Positions 56,868 through 62,320 of a DNA stretch of 64,000 nucleotides are shown piece by piece. Source of the DNA: Lysobacter sp. K5869 (GTDB taxonomy: Bacteria; Pseudomonadota; Gammaproteobacteria; Xanthomonadales; Xanthomonadaceae); the NCBI RefSeq assembly GCF_018847975.1, contig NZ_CP072597.1, forward strand, positions 5,371,001 through 5,435,000. The letters are read 5' to 3'. The position numbers were made by a program, and so were the translations under genes. Each line of letters starts with the position of its first letter. The first letter of the stretch is position 1. The notes beneath the pieces were generated by a model that did not search any database, had not been told where the DNA came from, and saw only the letters and a program-made list of their open reading frames with translations.

Positions 56868-58931
56868 TTAAGCGGCTTTAGGCAAACCACGCGCGACTTC
56901 GTAACCGTCGAACACCATCGACGCCGACGCGCGGCCCTGGCTCAGCGAACGCAGCGTCGTCGTATAGCCCGACAACTGCGCCAACGGCGCGCGCGCCGTC
57001 ACGTCGCTGCGGCCGCCCTTGTCCTCGATGGACAGAACGCGACCGGAACGCCGCTGCAAGTCGCCGACCACGTCGCCGACGTTCGCCGCGGGCGTGTCCA
57101 CCACCAGCGCCATCACCGGTTCGAGCAAGGTCGTGCCAGCTTGCGCCAGCGCGGCCCTGAGCGCATCGGCGGCGGCGCGTTGGAACGCCTGCTCCGAGGA
57201 GTCCACCGCGTGGGTTTCGCCGTCGGTCAACGCGACGGTGAGGCCCACCACCGGGAAGCCTTGCGGCCCCTCGGCCAGCGCCGCGCGCAGCCCCTTCTCG
57301 GTCGCGCCGACGAAGTTGCGCGGAACCACGCCGCCGACGGTGCGGTCGACGAACTCGAACTGCCCGTCCTCGCGCGGGGTCACGTCGATGACCACGCGCG
57401 CGAACTGGCCGCTGCCGCCGGTCTGCTTGGACAGCTTGCCTTCCACGCCGCGCACCGCGCGGCTCGGCGTCTCCTGATAGGCCACGCGCGGCGAACCGGT
57501 GCGCACCTCGACGTTCCACAGCTCGCGCAGGCGATCGACCATCACTTCCAGATGCAGCTCGCCCATGCCCCAGACCAAGGTCTCGCCCGTATCCGCATCC
57601 GTACCGACACGGAACGACGGATCTTGCTGGGCCAGGCTAGCCAACCCCTGGCCGAGACGGATCAAGTCGCTGGACTTGGCCGCGGTCAAACGCCACGACA
57701 ACACCGCCGGCTGCGCCTGGATGCTGTCGAGCGCCAAACGCTCGCCGGCGTCGCTGAGCGTCTCGCCGCTGATCGCGTCTTTCCAGCCCACGACCGCGAC
57801 GATTTCGCCCGCGTACGCCACGTCCACGTCCTGGCCGCGGTCGGCTTGCACGACCTGCAAACGGCCGACGCGCAACGCCTTTTCGCGCCGCGACGCCCAC
57901 ACCGTGTCGCCGACCCGCAGCGTGCCCGAGTACAGACGAACGAACGTCTGCGCGCCGTGCTCCTGCTGCACGATCTTGAACACCAGACCGGCGAGCGGAC
58001 CTTGCCCGTCGGGCGCCAGTTCGACCTCGCCGCGTTCGCTTTGCGCGCGCACGGCCGGCCGGTCCAGCGGCGACGGCAGGTAATCGACGACGGCGTCGAG
58101 CAGCGGTTCCACGCCCTTGTTCTTGAACGCGGAGCCGGCCAGCACCGGGGTGCCCGCGCCGGCCAAGGTGGCCCGGCGCAGCGCGGCCTTGAGCAGCGCG
58201 ACGTCGATGGCGCGGCCGTCGAGGAAGGCCTCGGCGAGCGCGTCGTCGTGGTCGGCGACCGCTTCGATCAGGCGCTGGCGCGCCGGCTCGAAACGAGCCG
58301 CGTCTTCGTTCGTCCAGGCCTGCCGCGACAGGGTGCCGGCGTCGTCCCACGACACGCGTTCGCGCGCCACGTAGTCGATCCAGCCGCTCAGCTCGGATTC
58401 CGCGCCGACGGTTTCGCCCAGCGCCCACGGCACCGCGTCGAGCTTGTCGCGCATTTGCGCCAAGGTGCGGTCCAGCGAGGCGCCGACGCGGTCCATCTTG
58501 TTGACGAACGCGATCAGCGGCACGCCGTGGCGACGCGCTTGGCGCCACACGGTTTCCGATTGCGGTTGCACGCCGTCGACGCCGCTGAACACGGCGACCG
58601 CGCCGTCGAGCACGCGCAGCGAACGTTCGACTTCGATCGCGAAGTCGATGTGGCCCGGGGTGTCGATGACGGTGAGGCGATGCTCGGCGCCGTCGTGCGG
58701 CGTCCAGCGCGCTTGCACGGCGGCCGCGCCGATGGTGATGCCGCGGCGGCGTTCGATCGGATCGAAGTCGGTGGTGGCGGCGCCGTCGTGGACTTCGCCG
58801 GTGCGATGGATCGCGCCGGTTTTCCACAGCAGGCGTTCGGTCAGCGTGGTTTTGCCGGCGTCGACGTGGGCGATGATGCCGAGGTTGCGCCAGCGGGTGA
58901 TCGGGGTGTTGCTGACAAGCGGGGTGTTCAT
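56868..58931 (-). CDS. fusA2: EF-G paralogue (FusA2-like translation factor)
   Basis: 687 residues; a GTPase of the EF-G superfamily acting on the ribosome. G1 AHVDAGKT (21-28), G2-like RRRGITIGA, G3 DTPGHIDF, G4 NKMD and the later domains (GMGELHLEVMVDRL, GGVVPRNFVGATEKGL, LRSLSQGRASASMVF) are all present. It differs from canonical EF-G in the switch region (TDFDPIERRRGITI for MD..EQERGITI) and is shorter, so it is not the housekeeping FusA, which is usually encoded with rpsL/rpsG. It resembles EF-G2 or ribosome-protection-type paralogues. A short leader ORF and a terminator lie upstream. The start ATG at 58931 has only a weak GAG. Confidence 0.85.
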   Translation of the reverse strand: MNTPLVSNTPITRWRNLGIIAHVDAGKTTLTERLLWKTGAIHRTGEVHDGAATTDFDPIERRRGITIGAAAVQARWTPHDGAEHRLTVIDTPGHIDFAIEVERSLRVLDGAVAVFSGVDGVQPQSETVWRQARRHGVPLIAFVNKMDRVGASLDRTLAQMRDKLDAVPWALGETVGAESELSGWIDYVARERVSWDDAGTLSRQAWTNEDAARFEPARQRLIEAVADHDDALAEAFLDGRAIDVALLKAALRRATLAGAGTPVLAGSAFKNKGVEPLLDAVVDYLPSPLDRPAVRAQSERGEVELAPDGQGPLAGLVFKIVQQEHGAQTFVRLYSGTLRVGDTVWASRREKALRVGRLQVVQADRGQDVDVAYAGEIVAVVGWKDAISGETLSDAGERLALDSIQAQPAVLSWRLTAAKSSDLIRLGQGLASLAQQDPSFRVGTDADTGETLVWGMGELHLEVMVDRLRELWNVEVRTGSPRVAYQETPSRAVRGVEGKLSKQTGGSGQFARVVIDVTPREDGQFEFVDRTVGGVVPRNFVGATEKGLRAALAEGPQGFPVVGLTVALTDGETHAVDSSEQAFQRAAADALRAALAQAGTTLLEPVMALVVDTPAANVGDVVGDLQRRSGRVLSIEDKGGRSDVTARAPLAQLSGYTTTLRSLSQGRASASMVFDGYEVARGLPKAA

Positions 58932-58958
58932 AAAAAGCTCGCATTCGTGGCCAACGTA

Positions 58959-58977
58959 CGGGTCGCCGCGCGACCCG
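58959..58977 (-). other. Hairpin between the 9-codon leader ORF and fusA2
   Basis: An 8-bp stem CGGGTCGC/GCGACCCG with a 3-base loop (coordinates as on +). It lies 20 bp downstream of the leader-ORF stop and 27 bp upstream of the fusA2 ATG, where it could modulate ribosome access to fusA2. Confidence 0.5.
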
Positions 58978-58997
58978 GTTGGCGACGGGACGCGCGG

Positions 58998-59027
58998 CTA
59001 GGCTTGGGTGTCTTCCGTGGTATTCAC
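58998..59027 (-). CDS. Candidate 9-codon leader peptide of fusA2
   Basis: A strong AAGGAG eight bases before a GTG starts VNTTEDTQA and a TAG stop, 66 bp upstream of the fusA2 ATG. The leader has a better ribosome-binding site than fusA2 itself, and its first residues (NTT) resemble the start of FusA2 (MNTP). Short leader ORFs like this often couple ribosome occupancy to expression of the next gene. Not yet shown to be translated. Confidence 0.45.
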   Translation of the reverse strand: MNTTEDTQA

Positions 59028-59105
59028 GACACGTTCTCCTTGGGTTTTCGCTTGCTTCGGTTAGAGGGGAAGCCGGCATCGGCCGGCGGTTTCGCGAAAA
59101 GCGGG

Positions 59106-59133
59106 CAATAAAAAAGCACCCGGTCGGGTGCTT
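59106..59133 (-). terminator. Intrinsic terminator inside the fusA2 leader
   Basis: On the minus strand AAGCACCC-GACC-GGGTGCTT is followed by TTTTATTG: an 8-bp stem, 4-base loop and U-tract, oriented toward fusA2. No other gene is upstream on this strand within 150 bp, apart from the 32-codon ORF at 59161-59259, so it is best read as a leader terminator. The alternative is the 3' end of a small RNA or of that ORF's own transcript. Confidence 0.75.
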
Positions 59134-59160
59134 GTTTCGTACGACTTCGAGCGACGCCGG

Positions 59161-59259
59161 TCAGTAAGACCGCGAAGCGAAGATCGCAGGAGGCAGGCGC
59201 ACCCGGCCCGCGCTCGCGCGCAGGGCGTTCAGCGATATCAGGAGCGGGAAGCGCTGCAT
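59161..59259 (-). CDS. Candidate 32-residue leader ORF before the terminator
   Basis: ATG at 59259, TGA at 59163-59161; MQRFPLLISLNALRASAGRV plus 12 residues. The stop lies 27 bp before the leader terminator. No ribosome-binding site is obvious, so translation is uncertain. Codons 18-21 (GGC CGG GTG CGC) contain CCGGGTGC, an exact repeat of the terminator's 3' arm region, so this RNA segment could pair with the terminator's 5' arm. The ORF has no similarity to known proteins. Confidence 0.4.
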   Translation of the reverse strand: MQRFPLLISLNALRASAGRVRLPPAIFASRSY

Positions 59260-59301
59260 GACGGGATGGCCTGAGGAAAGGGGTGGGTGTTGCGTGTGCA
59301 T

Positions 59302-59329
59302 ATCGTAGGGGCGGCGCGGCGGGAGTCAA
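59302..59329 (-). promoter_or_regulatory. Sigma-70-like promoter for the fusA2 leader
   Basis: On the minus strand, -35 TTGACT (59329-59324), 16-bp spacer, -10 TACGAT (59307-59302). Predicted transcription start near 59295, about 36 nt before the 32-codon ORF. Confidence 0.55.
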
Positions 59330-59400
59330 GCGGCGCGGGCGCCCGCGCCGTGGGATTTATCGTTCCAAATCGCGCGATCCCGCGACGCTCCGTTCGGGCC

Positions 59401-59499
59401 CTGTAGGAGCGGCGCGAGCCGCGACCGCGGCAACGCAACCATGACGAAGGTTGCGGTGTAGTTGCGTTGTCGCGGTCGCGGCTCGCGCCGCTCCTACAG
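59401..59499. repeat. GTAGGAGC-family hairpin with near-perfect dyad
   Basis: CTGTAGGAGCGGCGCGAGCC at 59401-59420 and the complement ending ...GCGCCGCTCCTACAG at 59485-59499, with GTTGCG/CGCAAC inner pairs. It lies just behind the SMC operon's stop and could terminate it. Confidence 0.85.
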
Positions 59500-59512
59500 G
59501 GGGATGGCGAAC

Positions 59513-62320
59513 TTACGCGGCCTTGCCGGTCTTCTCGACCTGCCGCTTCAACACCGCCACCGGCTCCGCCCAGGTGTTGCCGCCGCGGCGCTTGCTCGTG
59601 GTCAGCACCAGATCCGAGGGATCGAACACGTTGAGGTTGTGCGTGATCGGCGTGGTCAGGATGTACTGCGCGTCGGTGGCGCGCAGGAAGCGGCCGACCT
59701 TCTCGATGTTGAACACGTCCAGGTGCGCGAACGGTTCGTCGATGAACACGAAGCCGCCCGGCTGATCCTCGTCGCGCAGCAAGGCCACCAACAGCAGCAG
59801 CGACTTCATCACCTGCTGGCCGCCGGAGGCTTCGCCGTCGTCCAGGCCGATCCAGCCCTTGCGGTCGAAATCGAAGCGCACCGACAGGCCGGCCTGCGCC
59901 AGCGCGACGTCGTTGTTGGCCAACTCCGGCATGTCGGCGTCGACGCCGATGCCGGCCAGTTCGCCGAGCGCGGACAGATTCTTCTTGTAGCGGCGCACGG
60001 TCGCGCGCAGCACGTTGATGTAGGCCCCGCGCGCTTCCTCGGTGAGGCGCTTGGCGCGGTCGAGATGGCCTTCGCGGCGCATGATCGAACTGGCCAGATC
60101 GTCGTGGTCGGCGCCGATCTTGTCGCGCAGCGGGACGCAGGATTCGTCGACGACGAAGCCGCCGCGTTCCAGGCGGTCGTCGATGCGCTCCATCTCGCGG
60201 CGCACCGCCGAGGCGCTTTCGTACTCCTCGCGCGCGGCGTGCAGCGCGGCCGCGGTGCGCCAGGACTCGGGCATGATCCCGCGCTTGCGCCGGTAATCGA
60301 CGATGCGCTGGATCAGGCTCTGACGCTCGCCGTTGATCTGCTGCGCGCGTTCGCGCAACTCGCGCGCCAGCGCGTCGATCTGGCCCTGGCGCTTGGCCGC
60401 GGCGATGCCTTCGGCCTTGTCCTGATCGCCGGCTTCGTCGATGCGCGCGCGCGCCTGCGCCAGCGCGGCCGCGGCGGCGCCGGCGGTTTCGGCCAGTTCC
60501 GGCAGGCGTTCGGCGGCAGCGGCGAATTCGCCGGCGCGGGTCACCAGTTCCTGGGTCGCGTCCAGGCCGAGCAGGCGCGACTGGTCGGCGTCCACGCGCT
60601 GGCTCAGTTCGCGCAGCTCGGCTTCGCGCGCGTGCGCGCGCTGGGCGATGGTTTCCTGTTCGGCGCGCAGCTCGGCCAACTGCGACTGGCGCGCGCCGCT
60701 GCCGAAGTGCTGCTGGTTGCCGCCGATGTGGCGGCCGCCGCGGCTTTCGCGCAGATAGCCCTTCTGGGTGATCCAGTCCTGCTGCGCCGGCAGGCGCGAG
60801 CCGTGTTCGATGTCGGTGACGCGGCGGATGCGGTCGAGCTGGCGCGGCAGCCACGCCGGCGGATCGGCCGAGAAGCGCACCACTTCCAGCAACGAGCCCG
60901 CGCTCGGCTTGGGCACCGGCGCGCGCTCGGCGACGATGAAGTGGCGGTACTGCTGGCTTTCGCCGAGCTGCCACGCGGCGCGCGCGTCCCTCGGGTTCTC
61001 CAGCACCAACAGATGCCGGTACGGCGCCAGCACCGCTTCGATCGCGACCGACCATTGCGGATCGACGATCTCGACCAGTTCGGTCAGCACCCGGTGATCG
61101 ATGTTGGCCTTGTCGAGCGAGGCGCGGAAATCGCGTTCGAACGGCTCGACGATGCGCCCGCCGCCGCTGAGGGCGGCCAGCTGCGCGGCCAGTTCGCCGG
61201 CGCGCTTGCGGTCGCGCTCGGCTTCCAGCTTGAGTTCGGCTTGGCGGCGGCGGCCGTTTTCGACCGCGGCGCTGAGCGAATCCACGTCGAGCTCGCCGCG
61301 CTGCGCTTGCAGCTTGGCCAACTCGTCGCGGCGCTTGACCAGCATTTCGGCATCGCGCGCGGCGTCGCGGGCCTGGGTGAAGGCCTGTTCGCTGGCGCCG
61401 ACCTGACGGCGCGCCTCGCGCATGGCTTCGACCAGCGACTCACGGCCGCCCGAGGCGATCGCGTCCTCGCGCTGCATGTCGTCGAGCGAACGCTCGCGCT
61501 CGCGCAGCGCGCGGCGCAGGCCGGTCAGGCGCGGCTTGGCGCCTTCGATGGCATTGCGCTGATCGGCCAGTTCGACCTTGGGCGCGATCTCGGTTTCCAG
61601 GCGCTGGCGCTGGTTGCGCAACGCGTTGTATTCCTCGAACGAGCGCACGTCGGCCTTGGCCGATTCCAGGCGCAGGTGCAGGCCGGCCAAGTCCTGGCCG
61701 AGCTGCTGCAGTTCTTTTTCGACGTCGAACTGCTCGGTGCGCGCGCGCTGGTAGTCGTCGAGCACGGCCTTGTCTTCGAACACGTCGAAGATCAGTTGCA
61801 GCAGTTCGCGCGGCGAGTATTGGCAGAGCTTGTCGGTGGCGCCCTGCTCCAGGGTCAGCACGCGGCAGATCGCGCGGGTCAAACCGGCGCCGGCCAGACG
61901 CACGCGGTAATCGCGCACGCCGAGCCATTCGCCGCCTTGTTCCAGCGTTTCCACCGGCACGTCGCCGCCGACGATTTGATAATCGCGGCTCCAGTCGCCG
62001 CCGCGCTTGCGGATGCGGCAGGCGAGCGTGACCTGATCGTCCTTGATCGGGAAGAACGGCCGGCCGCCGCGGCGGTCCGGACTGTTGCTGACCACCGCGC
62101 GCAGCCACGCGTACGGCTTGCCGTTGTGGCGCAGATAAGTTTTGTAGTCGCGCGCGGTGTCGCGGTCTTCGATCGCCAACAGGGTGCGCAGCGCGTCGAG
62201 CAAGGTGGTCTTGCCCGAACCGTTGGGGCCGACCACGGTGACGATGGACGCGTCCAGCGGCAGTTGGAAGCGCTGCCAGTAGTCCCAGTGCACGACTTCG
62301 AGCGAGCGGAACTCAAACAT
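59513..62320 (-). CDS. SMC-like condensin ATPase (MukB/MksF/JetC type)
   Basis: 935 residues. Head: Walker A GPNGSGKT (31-38), ABC signature EASGGQQ (830-836), Walker B FVFIDEP (857-863) with DE at 861/862 and the D-loop AHLD. Long coiled coils flank a hinge-like region near 405-460 (DPQWSVAIEAVLAPYRHLLV, RAAWQLGESQ). Such SMCs work as dimers closed by a kleisin and KITE partners. The upstream genes on the same strand fit these parts: KITE at 62313 (8-bp overlap ATGTTTGA) and kleisin at 63350. It is shorter than MukB (about 1,480) and JetC (about 1,100). No nuclease gene follows before the terminal repeat and fusA2 leader. Confidence 0.88.
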   Translation of the reverse strand: MFEFRSLEVVHWDYWQRFQLPLDASIVTVVGPNGSGKTTLLDALRTLLAIEDRDTARDYKTYLRHNGKPYAWLRAVVSNSPDRRGGRPFFPIKDDQVTLACRIRKRGGDWSRDYQIVGGDVPVETLEQGGEWLGVRDYRVRLAGAGLTRAICRVLTLEQGATDKLCQYSPRELLQLIFDVFEDKAVLDDYQRARTEQFDVEKELQQLGQDLAGLHLRLESAKADVRSFEEYNALRNQRQRLETEIAPKVELADQRNAIEGAKPRLTGLRRALRERERSLDDMQREDAIASGGRESLVEAMREARRQVGASEQAFTQARDAARDAEMLVKRRDELAKLQAQRGELDVDSLSAAVENGRRRQAELKLEAERDRKRAGELAAQLAALSGGGRIVEPFERDFRASLDKANIDHRVLTELVEIVDPQWSVAIEAVLAPYRHLLVLENPRDARAAWQLGESQQYRHFIVAERAPVPKPSAGSLLEVVRFSADPPAWLPRQLDRIRRVTDIEHGSRLPAQQDWITQKGYLRESRGGRHIGGNQQHFGSGARQSQLAELRAEQETIAQRAHAREAELRELSQRVDADQSRLLGLDATQELVTRAGEFAAAAERLPELAETAGAAAAALAQARARIDEAGDQDKAEGIAAAKRQGQIDALARELRERAQQINGERQSLIQRIVDYRRKRGIMPESWRTAAALHAAREEYESASAVRREMERIDDRLERGGFVVDESCVPLRDKIGADHDDLASSIMRREGHLDRAKRLTEEARGAYINVLRATVRRYKKNLSALGELAGIGVDADMPELANNDVALAQAGLSVRFDFDRKGWIGLDDGEASGGQQVMKSLLLLVALLRDEDQPGGFVFIDEPFAHLDVFNIEKVGRFLRATDAQYILTTPITHNLNVFDPSDLVLTTSKRRGGNTWAEPVAVLKRQVEKTGKAA

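Follow-up and report, generated by a model that had tools for sequence, protein, structure and literature searches.

We propose that fusA2, which encodes a spare elongation factor G (EF-G) in Lysobacter sp. K5869, is controlled by a two-stage leader, and we give this reading a probability of roughly two in three. The first stage is likely to be a ribosome-mediated transcription attenuator: the leader has the sequence features of one, they are well conserved, and the mechanism that we draw from them is a proposal. The second stage, which we predict from RNA structure, could be a translational gate, with the odds about even. To our knowledge, a second EF-G is common in bacteria and its purpose is unclear. 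Because this leader is conserved and accompanies every fusA2 copy that we sampled in the family, it should show when the cell wants the protein, which is probably when ribosomes move poorly.

The features lie on the minus strand of the window (the whole stretch of DNA that was analysed, 64,000 nucleotides, which is part of a 5.97-Mb genome labelled G000). From promoter to gene, they are:

59302..59329 (−), promoter of the fusA2 transcription unit, TTGACT-N16-TACGAT, the sole promoter-like site found in 58850-59550
59161..59259 (−), leader ORF 1 (LP1), 32 codons, MQRFPLLISLNALRASAGRVRLPPAIFASRSY, recognized by its conserved PLL and its length
59236..59238 (−), codon 8 of LP1, a very rare ATA (Ile) and a candidate slow step, from codon counts
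59190..59215 (−), protector hairpin (anti-antiterminator) in LP1, from pairing and covariation
59199..59205 (−), antiterminator strand CGGGTGC, LP1 codons 19-21, which can pair with 59131-59125 and whose bases recur in the terminator 3′ arm
59106..59133 (−), intrinsic terminator, AAGCACCC-GACC-GGGTGCTT and a T-tract, from a scan and covariation
59036..59041 (−), AAGGAG, the Shine-Dalgarno sequence of ORF 2, with GGAG invariant in 68 distinct rows
58998..59027 (−), ORF 2 (LP2), GTG...TAG, 9 codons, MNTTEDTQA, recognized by its conserved Shine-Dalgarno sequence and start
58966..58997 (−), hairpin S1, in which 58997-58987 pairs with 58976-58966 and whose first base directly follows the stop codon of ORF 2
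58978..58983 (−), GCCAAC in the S1 loop, 5′ strand of the likely helix S2, invariant in 68 of 68 distinct rows and a perfect complement of 58955-58950
58950..58955 (−), GTTGGC, 3′ strand of S2, invariant in 68 of 68 distinct rows
56868..58931 (−), fusA2, an EF-G paralogue of 687 aa

An earlier reading of this DNA from its letters alone (the sequence-only reading) had proposed an attenuator here, and its promoter, 32-codon ORF, terminator, AAGGAG with a 9-codon ORF, and fusA2 start at 58931 all lie where it placed them on the minus strand. The attenuator holds up in the sequence tests below, but as an account of the leader it was incomplete. The 9-codon ORF and a small hairpin were named and given no role; both are conserved, and this ORF and the predicted pseudoknot that follows it, which the reading omitted, are at least as well conserved as the attenuator.

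On one strand, the window has a promoter, a short ORF, an intrinsic terminator, and a gene, in that order, which is the layout of an attenuator. The promoter has 9 of 12 matches (shuffles gave a mean of 0.1), and the scan of 58850-59550 found no second promoter-like site between the terminator and fusA2, which bears out the earlier statement that no good promoter lies there. By eye, most of the 80 relatives have a TTGAC-type −35 and a CAGAAT-, CAGACT-, TACTCT-, or TAGAAT-type −10 at the same place. A script found LP1 and a terminator before fusA2 in 80 of the 81 leaders that we collected; in the one that it missed (L167), its terminator pattern failed, and this leader has both the ORF and the terminator and is absent from the LP1 counts. 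Among the 81 leaders, one contig is counted twice (L004 and L151), and the leaders were collected with models that contain the conserved bases, so the invariance among them is partly by selection. In leaders that we call Stenotrophomonas-type, including L003, a −10-like TAGAAT ends just 7 nt before the ATG of LP1, and LP1 may be read there from a leaderless transcript. (The label comes from L003, of Stenotrophomonas maltophilia E301, whose LP1 is identical to that of several genomes of the genus labelled g29. Another genus, g7, is by our guess Xanthomonas.)

LP1 is 28-36 codons long in the 80 leaders, with the consensus PLL...R.SAGRVRLP and a fall in conservation after L-P. As expected of a coding sequence, length differences inside the aligned ORFs are whole codons. 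The three residues of PLL are kept in 62, 63, and 63 of 63 distinct ORFs while the first Leu is written in five different codons, which argues for selection on the peptide. No strong Shine-Dalgarno sequence is visible by eye before LP1. The codon after PLL is ATA in 38 of the 42 variants that have Ile at this position, and the remaining 21 of the 63 variants have Lys or Thr. ATA is not used at all among 13,844 codons in 29 ORFs of the window (picked on length and codon bias), and it accounts for 3 of 1,852 Ile codons in 76 fusA2 genes. Thus, the Ile-bearing leaders seem to retain a rare, probably slow codon for a purpose. In the R-V-R core, the first Arg is written as CGG in 61 of 62 cases, although CGG makes up 10% of the Arg codons in the window. 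Five codons upstream, a conserved Arg uses CGC alone (60 of 60), and two codons downstream, the Arg uses CGC or CGT (46 of 46). CGG is thus preferred at the core Arg and not at its neighbors, which points to selection on the RNA of the core as well.

The role that we propose for this RNA begins with a repeat. The 8-mer CCGGGTGC lies at 59206-59199, within LP1, and a second copy lies at 59123-59116, in the terminator 3′ arm; both positions agree with the sequence-only reading. In the window alone, this could be chance: when LP1 was recoded at random with the peptide and the local codon usage kept, 5.5% of the synonymous versions had a 7-bp match to that arm of the terminator (P = 0.055). Chance is rejected only through the relatives. 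Among them, the core CGGGTGC and the terminator 5′ arm GCACCCG (59131-59125) pair in 94.2% of cells of the alignment, over 74 distinct sequences, and the pairing recurs with compensatory changes. The terminator stem (8 bp, 59133-59114, then the T-tract) is paired in 100% of cells over 74 distinct rows, with 46 double-change cells versus 9.4 in shuffles. The protector hairpin, which overlaps the core, is paired in 93.0% of cells, again over 74 distinct rows, with 51 double-change cells versus 23.6. For each of these three helices, the paired cells and the covariation score were above all 500 shuffles, which are uncorrected for the relatedness of the rows. For the antiterminator, two further counts, of pairs that have changed on both sides and of kinds of pair, were no higher than in shuffles (195 of 500 each). 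At one of its pairs, U-A stands in 49 rows and C-G in 23, with one row of U-G and one row unpaired, and the change from U-A to C-G was probably one or two events.

The antiterminator, the terminator, and the protector hairpin are mutually exclusive, and each has compensatory changes, few of which are independent. The exclusive terminator and antiterminator are thus present across the relatives, and more weakly in the Stenotrophomonas-type clade: in 18 of the 80 leaders, all of this type, the match of the core to the arm comprises 4-5 Watson-Crick pairs and is no better than elsewhere in the ORF. An extra hairpin upstream of the protector hairpin is paired in only 72.6% of cells and was left out of the model. 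It is possibly a polymerase-pause hairpin.

The sequence-only reading also held that the position of the ribosome on the ORF decides the fold. We folded the RNA of 58 leaders, one for each distinct LP1 peptide among the 80, with the leader ended before the terminator 3′ arm and with only the RNA ahead of the ribosome free to fold. As long as the ribosome stood four or more codons short of the core Arg, the antiterminator had a probability above 0.5 in at least 95% of these leaders at each position; from three codons before that Arg onward, it did so in 0 of 58. (The loss when the ribosome covers the core is built into the model.) With no ribosome, 83% of the 58 leaders favor the antiterminator before the 3′ arm is made, so an absence of translation should also give read-through. 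This sharp switch would fit the claim, but it is not seen in equilibrium folds of full leaders, with the ribosome footprint held unpaired, which mostly favor the terminator. It was preferred for most ribosome positions in all 11 leaders folded in this way. In six of them (L090, L098, L102, L161, L171, and L204), the antiterminator rose above 0.5 for certain positions; in the other five it never did, and in L204 it was preferred even without a ribosome. As equilibrium favors the terminator, the scheme needs kinetic, co-transcriptional folding.

From these comparative features (the ORFs, the exclusive helices, the compensatory changes, and the linkage to fusA2), we infer the direction of the switch, its signal, and the action of the second stage. 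RNA polymerase would start at 59329-59302, and a ribosome would follow on LP1. A prompt ribosome would cover the antiterminator strand, or the protector hairpin would re-form behind it; the terminator would then fold and fusA2 would be off, which would be the default. If elongation were slow before the core of LP1, then the core would pair with the terminator 5′ arm, giving read-through into fusA2. The slowing would be a general block of translation, with the timing perhaps set by the conserved rare ATA codon. The signal that we favor, which has perhaps an even chance of being right, is translation that is slow in general, with elongation held back by ribosome-targeting compounds or by a shortage of working EF-G. 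Should the attenuator operate as we draw it, it would be one that senses ribosomes ahead of the gene for a core elongation factor.

Attenuators of the trp, phe, and his type have mutually exclusive 1:2, 2:3, and 3:4 helices, with strand 2 in or near the leader ORF, and the fusA2 leader is like them in this respect. It differs in that its gene is not biosynthetic and in that it has no conserved run of codons for one amino acid. (Amino-acid-specific attenuation is rejected on this ground; runs of three of one residue occur in 6 of 80 LP1 peptides.) The Rfam model Phe_leader scores 19.7 bits on this region of the window, where the gathering threshold is 55. In logic, the nearest system is the PA5471.1 leader of armZ in Pseudomonas aeruginosa, for which transcription attenuation that is relieved by stalled or impaired ribosomes has been proposed (PMC12057347, PMC13041342). 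Both have a short leader ORF and a downstream terminator. In contrast to fusA2, the target of PA5471.1 is an efflux-pump anti-repressor, and the portions of those papers used here do not mention a second ORF with a pseudoknot; this comparison covers layout and target. In target, the nearest is MsrDL-msrD of Streptococcus (PMC10314930), where a leader peptide and an intrinsic terminator precede the gene for a translation factor. However, MsrDL is MYLIFM and senses macrolides, the stalled ribosome obstructs the terminator, and no antiterminator strand within the ORF is described in the sections that we cite. The toiL-topAI uORF of E. coli detects ribosome inhibitors of several classes by a refolding of the RNA, according to the part of the report drawn on here (PMC12121999), which resembles what is only proposed for the fusA2 leader, but it works on translation and on Rho-dependent termination rather than on an intrinsic terminator.

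ORF 2 begins after a spacer of 24 to 238 nt from the terminator (in the 53 leaders measured). Its Shine-Dalgarno sequence, start, and spacing are kept in 81 of 81 collected leaders, and its ribosome site is the strongest in the leader. The ribosome site of fusA2 is mostly weaker (typically GGA, AGGA, or GAG; 5 of 79 have GGAG or AGGAG). ORF 2 has 9 codons in 68 leaders, 10 in 3, 14 in 8, and 22 in 2. At the position of its stop codon, the triplet is TAG in 69 of 81, TGA in 2, TGG in 8 (L172 and L175-L181), and CAG in 2 (L005 and L166). In the 10 leaders without the usual stop, the next stop codon is in the hairpin loop in eight and beyond it in two. TAG is the stop codon of 0 of the 29 window ORFs and of 9 of the 76 fusA2 genes.

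The hairpin that follows covaries: 7 of the 11 pairs of S1 have changed on both sides, with 71 such cells versus 16.2 in shuffles (0 of 500 as high). With a narrower set of rows (21 distinct), the covariation score of S1 and S2 was no better than in shuffles (133 of 500). S2 is invariant and so is without covariation support. With the 5′ arm of S1 masked, 60 of 65 distinct folds had a plain hairpin closed by the bases of S2, and we consider the S2 helix likely. The predicted S1/S2 pseudoknot would have 11 bp in S1, 6 bp in S2, a short first loop, and a second loop of about 8-11 nt. Such dimensions resemble those of a coronavirus frameshift pseudoknot. The small hairpin read earlier at 58977-58959 overlaps the 3′ half of this larger, conserved structure, which consists of the hairpin at 58997-58966 and the helix 58983-58978/58955-58950. 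Many folds also contain an inner helix within S2, formed by the 3′ arm of S1 and a C-rich stretch. By eye, it is absent in L102, L190, L200, and L205, so it is not required. The distance from GTTGGC to the start of fusA2 is 14-21 nt in all but one of the 79 leaders in which the start was placed (78 of 79). (L161 and L184 are not in the counts for the fusA2 start and frame.) We also considered translation of fusA2 from the GTG in GGAGAACGTGCCATG and rejected it, as that frame is open in only 15 of 79.

On the read-through transcript, a ribosome on ORF 2 would stop at the edge of the pseudoknot, 14-21 nt before the weaker start of fusA2. Ribosomes on ORF 2 would open S1, and their traffic would melt or keep the pseudoknot and so set the translation of fusA2. 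A more specific idea, which we find quite improbable, is that the second stage is a mechanical sensor of EF-G capacity: the ORF 2 ribosome would have to translocate into a coronavirus-like pseudoknot at the stop codon, and its speed in doing this, which would vary with the supply of working EF-G, would set translation of the backup EF-G. If so, the two stages together would form a homeostatic circuit for translocation with two inputs. Provided that the attenuator acts as proposed, the pseudoknot that follows would bring control of transcription and of translation together in one leader. The odc1 motif of alpha-proteobacteria also combines a uORF and a predicted pseudoknot in one leader (PMC8632094). 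It differs in its gene and bacterial class, and the part of the paper that describes it mentions no attenuator stage; this comparison is of descriptions, not sequences.

The linkage of the leader to fusA2 was assessed with two covariance models, R1 (ORF 2 and the hairpin) and R2 (LP1 and the terminator). Within the genus, 20 of 20 genomes searched (G000 included) match fusA2 with this leader. Among 395 sampled genomes of the family, R1 matched in 75, R2 in 83, and a protein search found fusA2 orthologues (E ≤ 1e-200) in 73. The genomes with a strong R1 match (≥69.8 bits) are the same 73, and all 73 also match R2. Because the protein search makes no use of the RNA models, it could have found fusA2 without the downstream element, and there was no such case among the 395. 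For the other two R1 matches (G045 and G160), the score is 27 bits, and a tblastn search of the fetched stretches gave no EF-G. Beyond the 73, R2 matched G224 (73 bits) and, weakly, nine others (≤33 bits). In G224 (L238, G224:C1:1421867-1422019), LP1 and the terminator are kept, and fusA2, ORF 2, and the downstream element were not found; nor was any EF-G found in the 10 kb around them. The ORFs beside it are transposase-like by eye. Apparently, G224 has lost fusA2 and the attenuator was left behind.

Most genomes of the family are without the whole unit (322 of the 395 have no fusA2 at this threshold). The unit is patchy even within genera: in g29, for example, G047 has no R1 match. In 369 genomes drawn from the class, R1 matched three (G000, G088, and G758). 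G758 belongs to another family, and 197 genomes of that family gave five strong matches with the same layout and one weak match. (Weak matches to R1 or R2 are those of 26-35 bits. Three of these, L182, L183, and L185, were checked by tblastn and had no EF-G; they were dropped as chance R1 matches, along with L002, which is on the same contig as L091, and L248, at 27 bits.) With Rfam release 15, no family reached its gathering threshold in the loci of 8 relatives, and matches in the window at 58500-59800 were all below threshold. Among the open-access papers that our searches listed, none is about this leader, and the same holds for those on fusA2 together with Xanthomonas or Stenotrophomonas (subscription papers and preprints were not covered). 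The two covariance models and the 81 sequences provide a handle for finding the conditions that induce EF-G2.

The first stage might instead be a drug- or peptide-specific arrest of the Erm, MsrDL, or PA5471.1 type, where the nascent chain of LP1 stalls for one ligand or antibiotic class. PLL would sit in the tunnel and R-x-x-L-P at the peptidyl center, and position, not general speed, would decide the fold. Attenuators of this sort are known, as parts of two papers cited above describe (PMC10314930, PMC12057347), and conservation of the PLL and R.SAGRVRLP blocks, with the drop after L-P, would fit. A +x+ motif (RVR, RAR, or RGR), which is named as a macrolide-arrest motif in a portion of PMC10314930, occurs in the core in 56 of 80 leaders, but it is absent from the other 24 (for example, 17 have RAC). 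Also, a ribosome stalled at L-P would lie over the core and favor the terminator, which is the wrong direction for induction, and RNA pairing accounts for much of the conservation of the core. We therefore consider a specific arrest unlikely. Far less likely still is that the leader serves to make the short RNA that ends at the terminator, as a small RNA acting in trans or for a small protein, and that read-through into fusA2 is incidental. LP1 is flanked by a promoter and a terminator, and RNAs of this kind are common. However, a strong match to LP1 and the terminator is present in all 73 fusA2 genomes of the family and otherwise only in G224, where fusA2 looks lost, and such a product would give no role to the pairing between the ORF and the terminator.

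For the second stage, ORF 2, the hairpin, and GTTGGC could together be the site of a trans-acting regulator (such as a ribosomal protein or EF-G2) that exerts feedback on translation, with the translation of ORF 2 being secondary. Pseudoknots are known sites of ribosomal-protein feedback (the S4/alpha operon and S15), and if the sequence is recognized, then we would expect what we see, with the bases of S2 invariant and S1 covarying freely. But a pure protein site would not need a Shine-Dalgarno sequence and a start for ORF 2, which all 81 leaders have, and we give this explanation a low probability. A pseudoknot of 11-bp S1 and 6-bp S2 right after a stop codon also brings to mind recoding from ORF 2 into fusA2, by a frameshift, by readthrough of the stop codon, or by bypassing over the hairpin, to yield an N-terminally extended EF-G. 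In the window, readthrough would be in frame (offset 96) and open. Across 79 leaders, however, the offset from ORF 2 to fusA2 modulo 3 is not conserved (33, 30, and 16), and readthrough is open in 29, a +1 shift in 30, and a −1 shift in 16. A consistent landing codon is also lacking, since the last codon before the stop position recurs among the first eight codons of fusA2 in just 39 of 79. With neither a consistent frame relation nor a landing codon, recoding is hardly credible and we reject it.

The gene that the two-stage leader would control encodes a full-length EF-G: its product scores 718.6 bits with TIGR00484 (cut-off 659.4) and contains the EF-G domains of Pfam. We read 76 of the 81 fusA2 genes (the other 5 have no ORF of over 600 codons that ends in the fetched stretch). 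The P-loop, DTPGH, and NKMD motifs of the GTPase are present in 76 of 76, and RGITI in 69. The closest named relative that we found is Lysobacter enzymogenes ATCC 29487, whose fusA2 protein is 97% identical. Within G000, fusA2 is 46% identical to another EF-G, which is encoded directly before a gene that resembles EF-Tu. fusA2 looks monocistronic because the next downstream ORFs with Pfam matches are on the opposite strand.

Several minor observations concern other copies and the neighbors of fusA2. A third EF-G-like gene (G000:C1:5449339-5451330, 33% identity) lies about 19 kb from fusA2, outside the window. The fusA2 match at G149:C1:3772797-3774845 has one in-frame TAG and may be a decayed copy or a sequencing error. 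Upstream of fusA2, also on the minus strand (window 59513-62320), is a gene for a 935-aa SMC/RecF-like AAA protein, which is under the curated NCBIfam cut-off in each of the best 25 of the 26 families that it matched. Between this gene and the fusA2 promoter lies a near-perfect inverted repeat of about 100 bp (59398-59502). It gave the best sub-threshold Rfam matches of the window region (to miRNAs and sRNAs, all sub-threshold), and to the eye it is REP-like.
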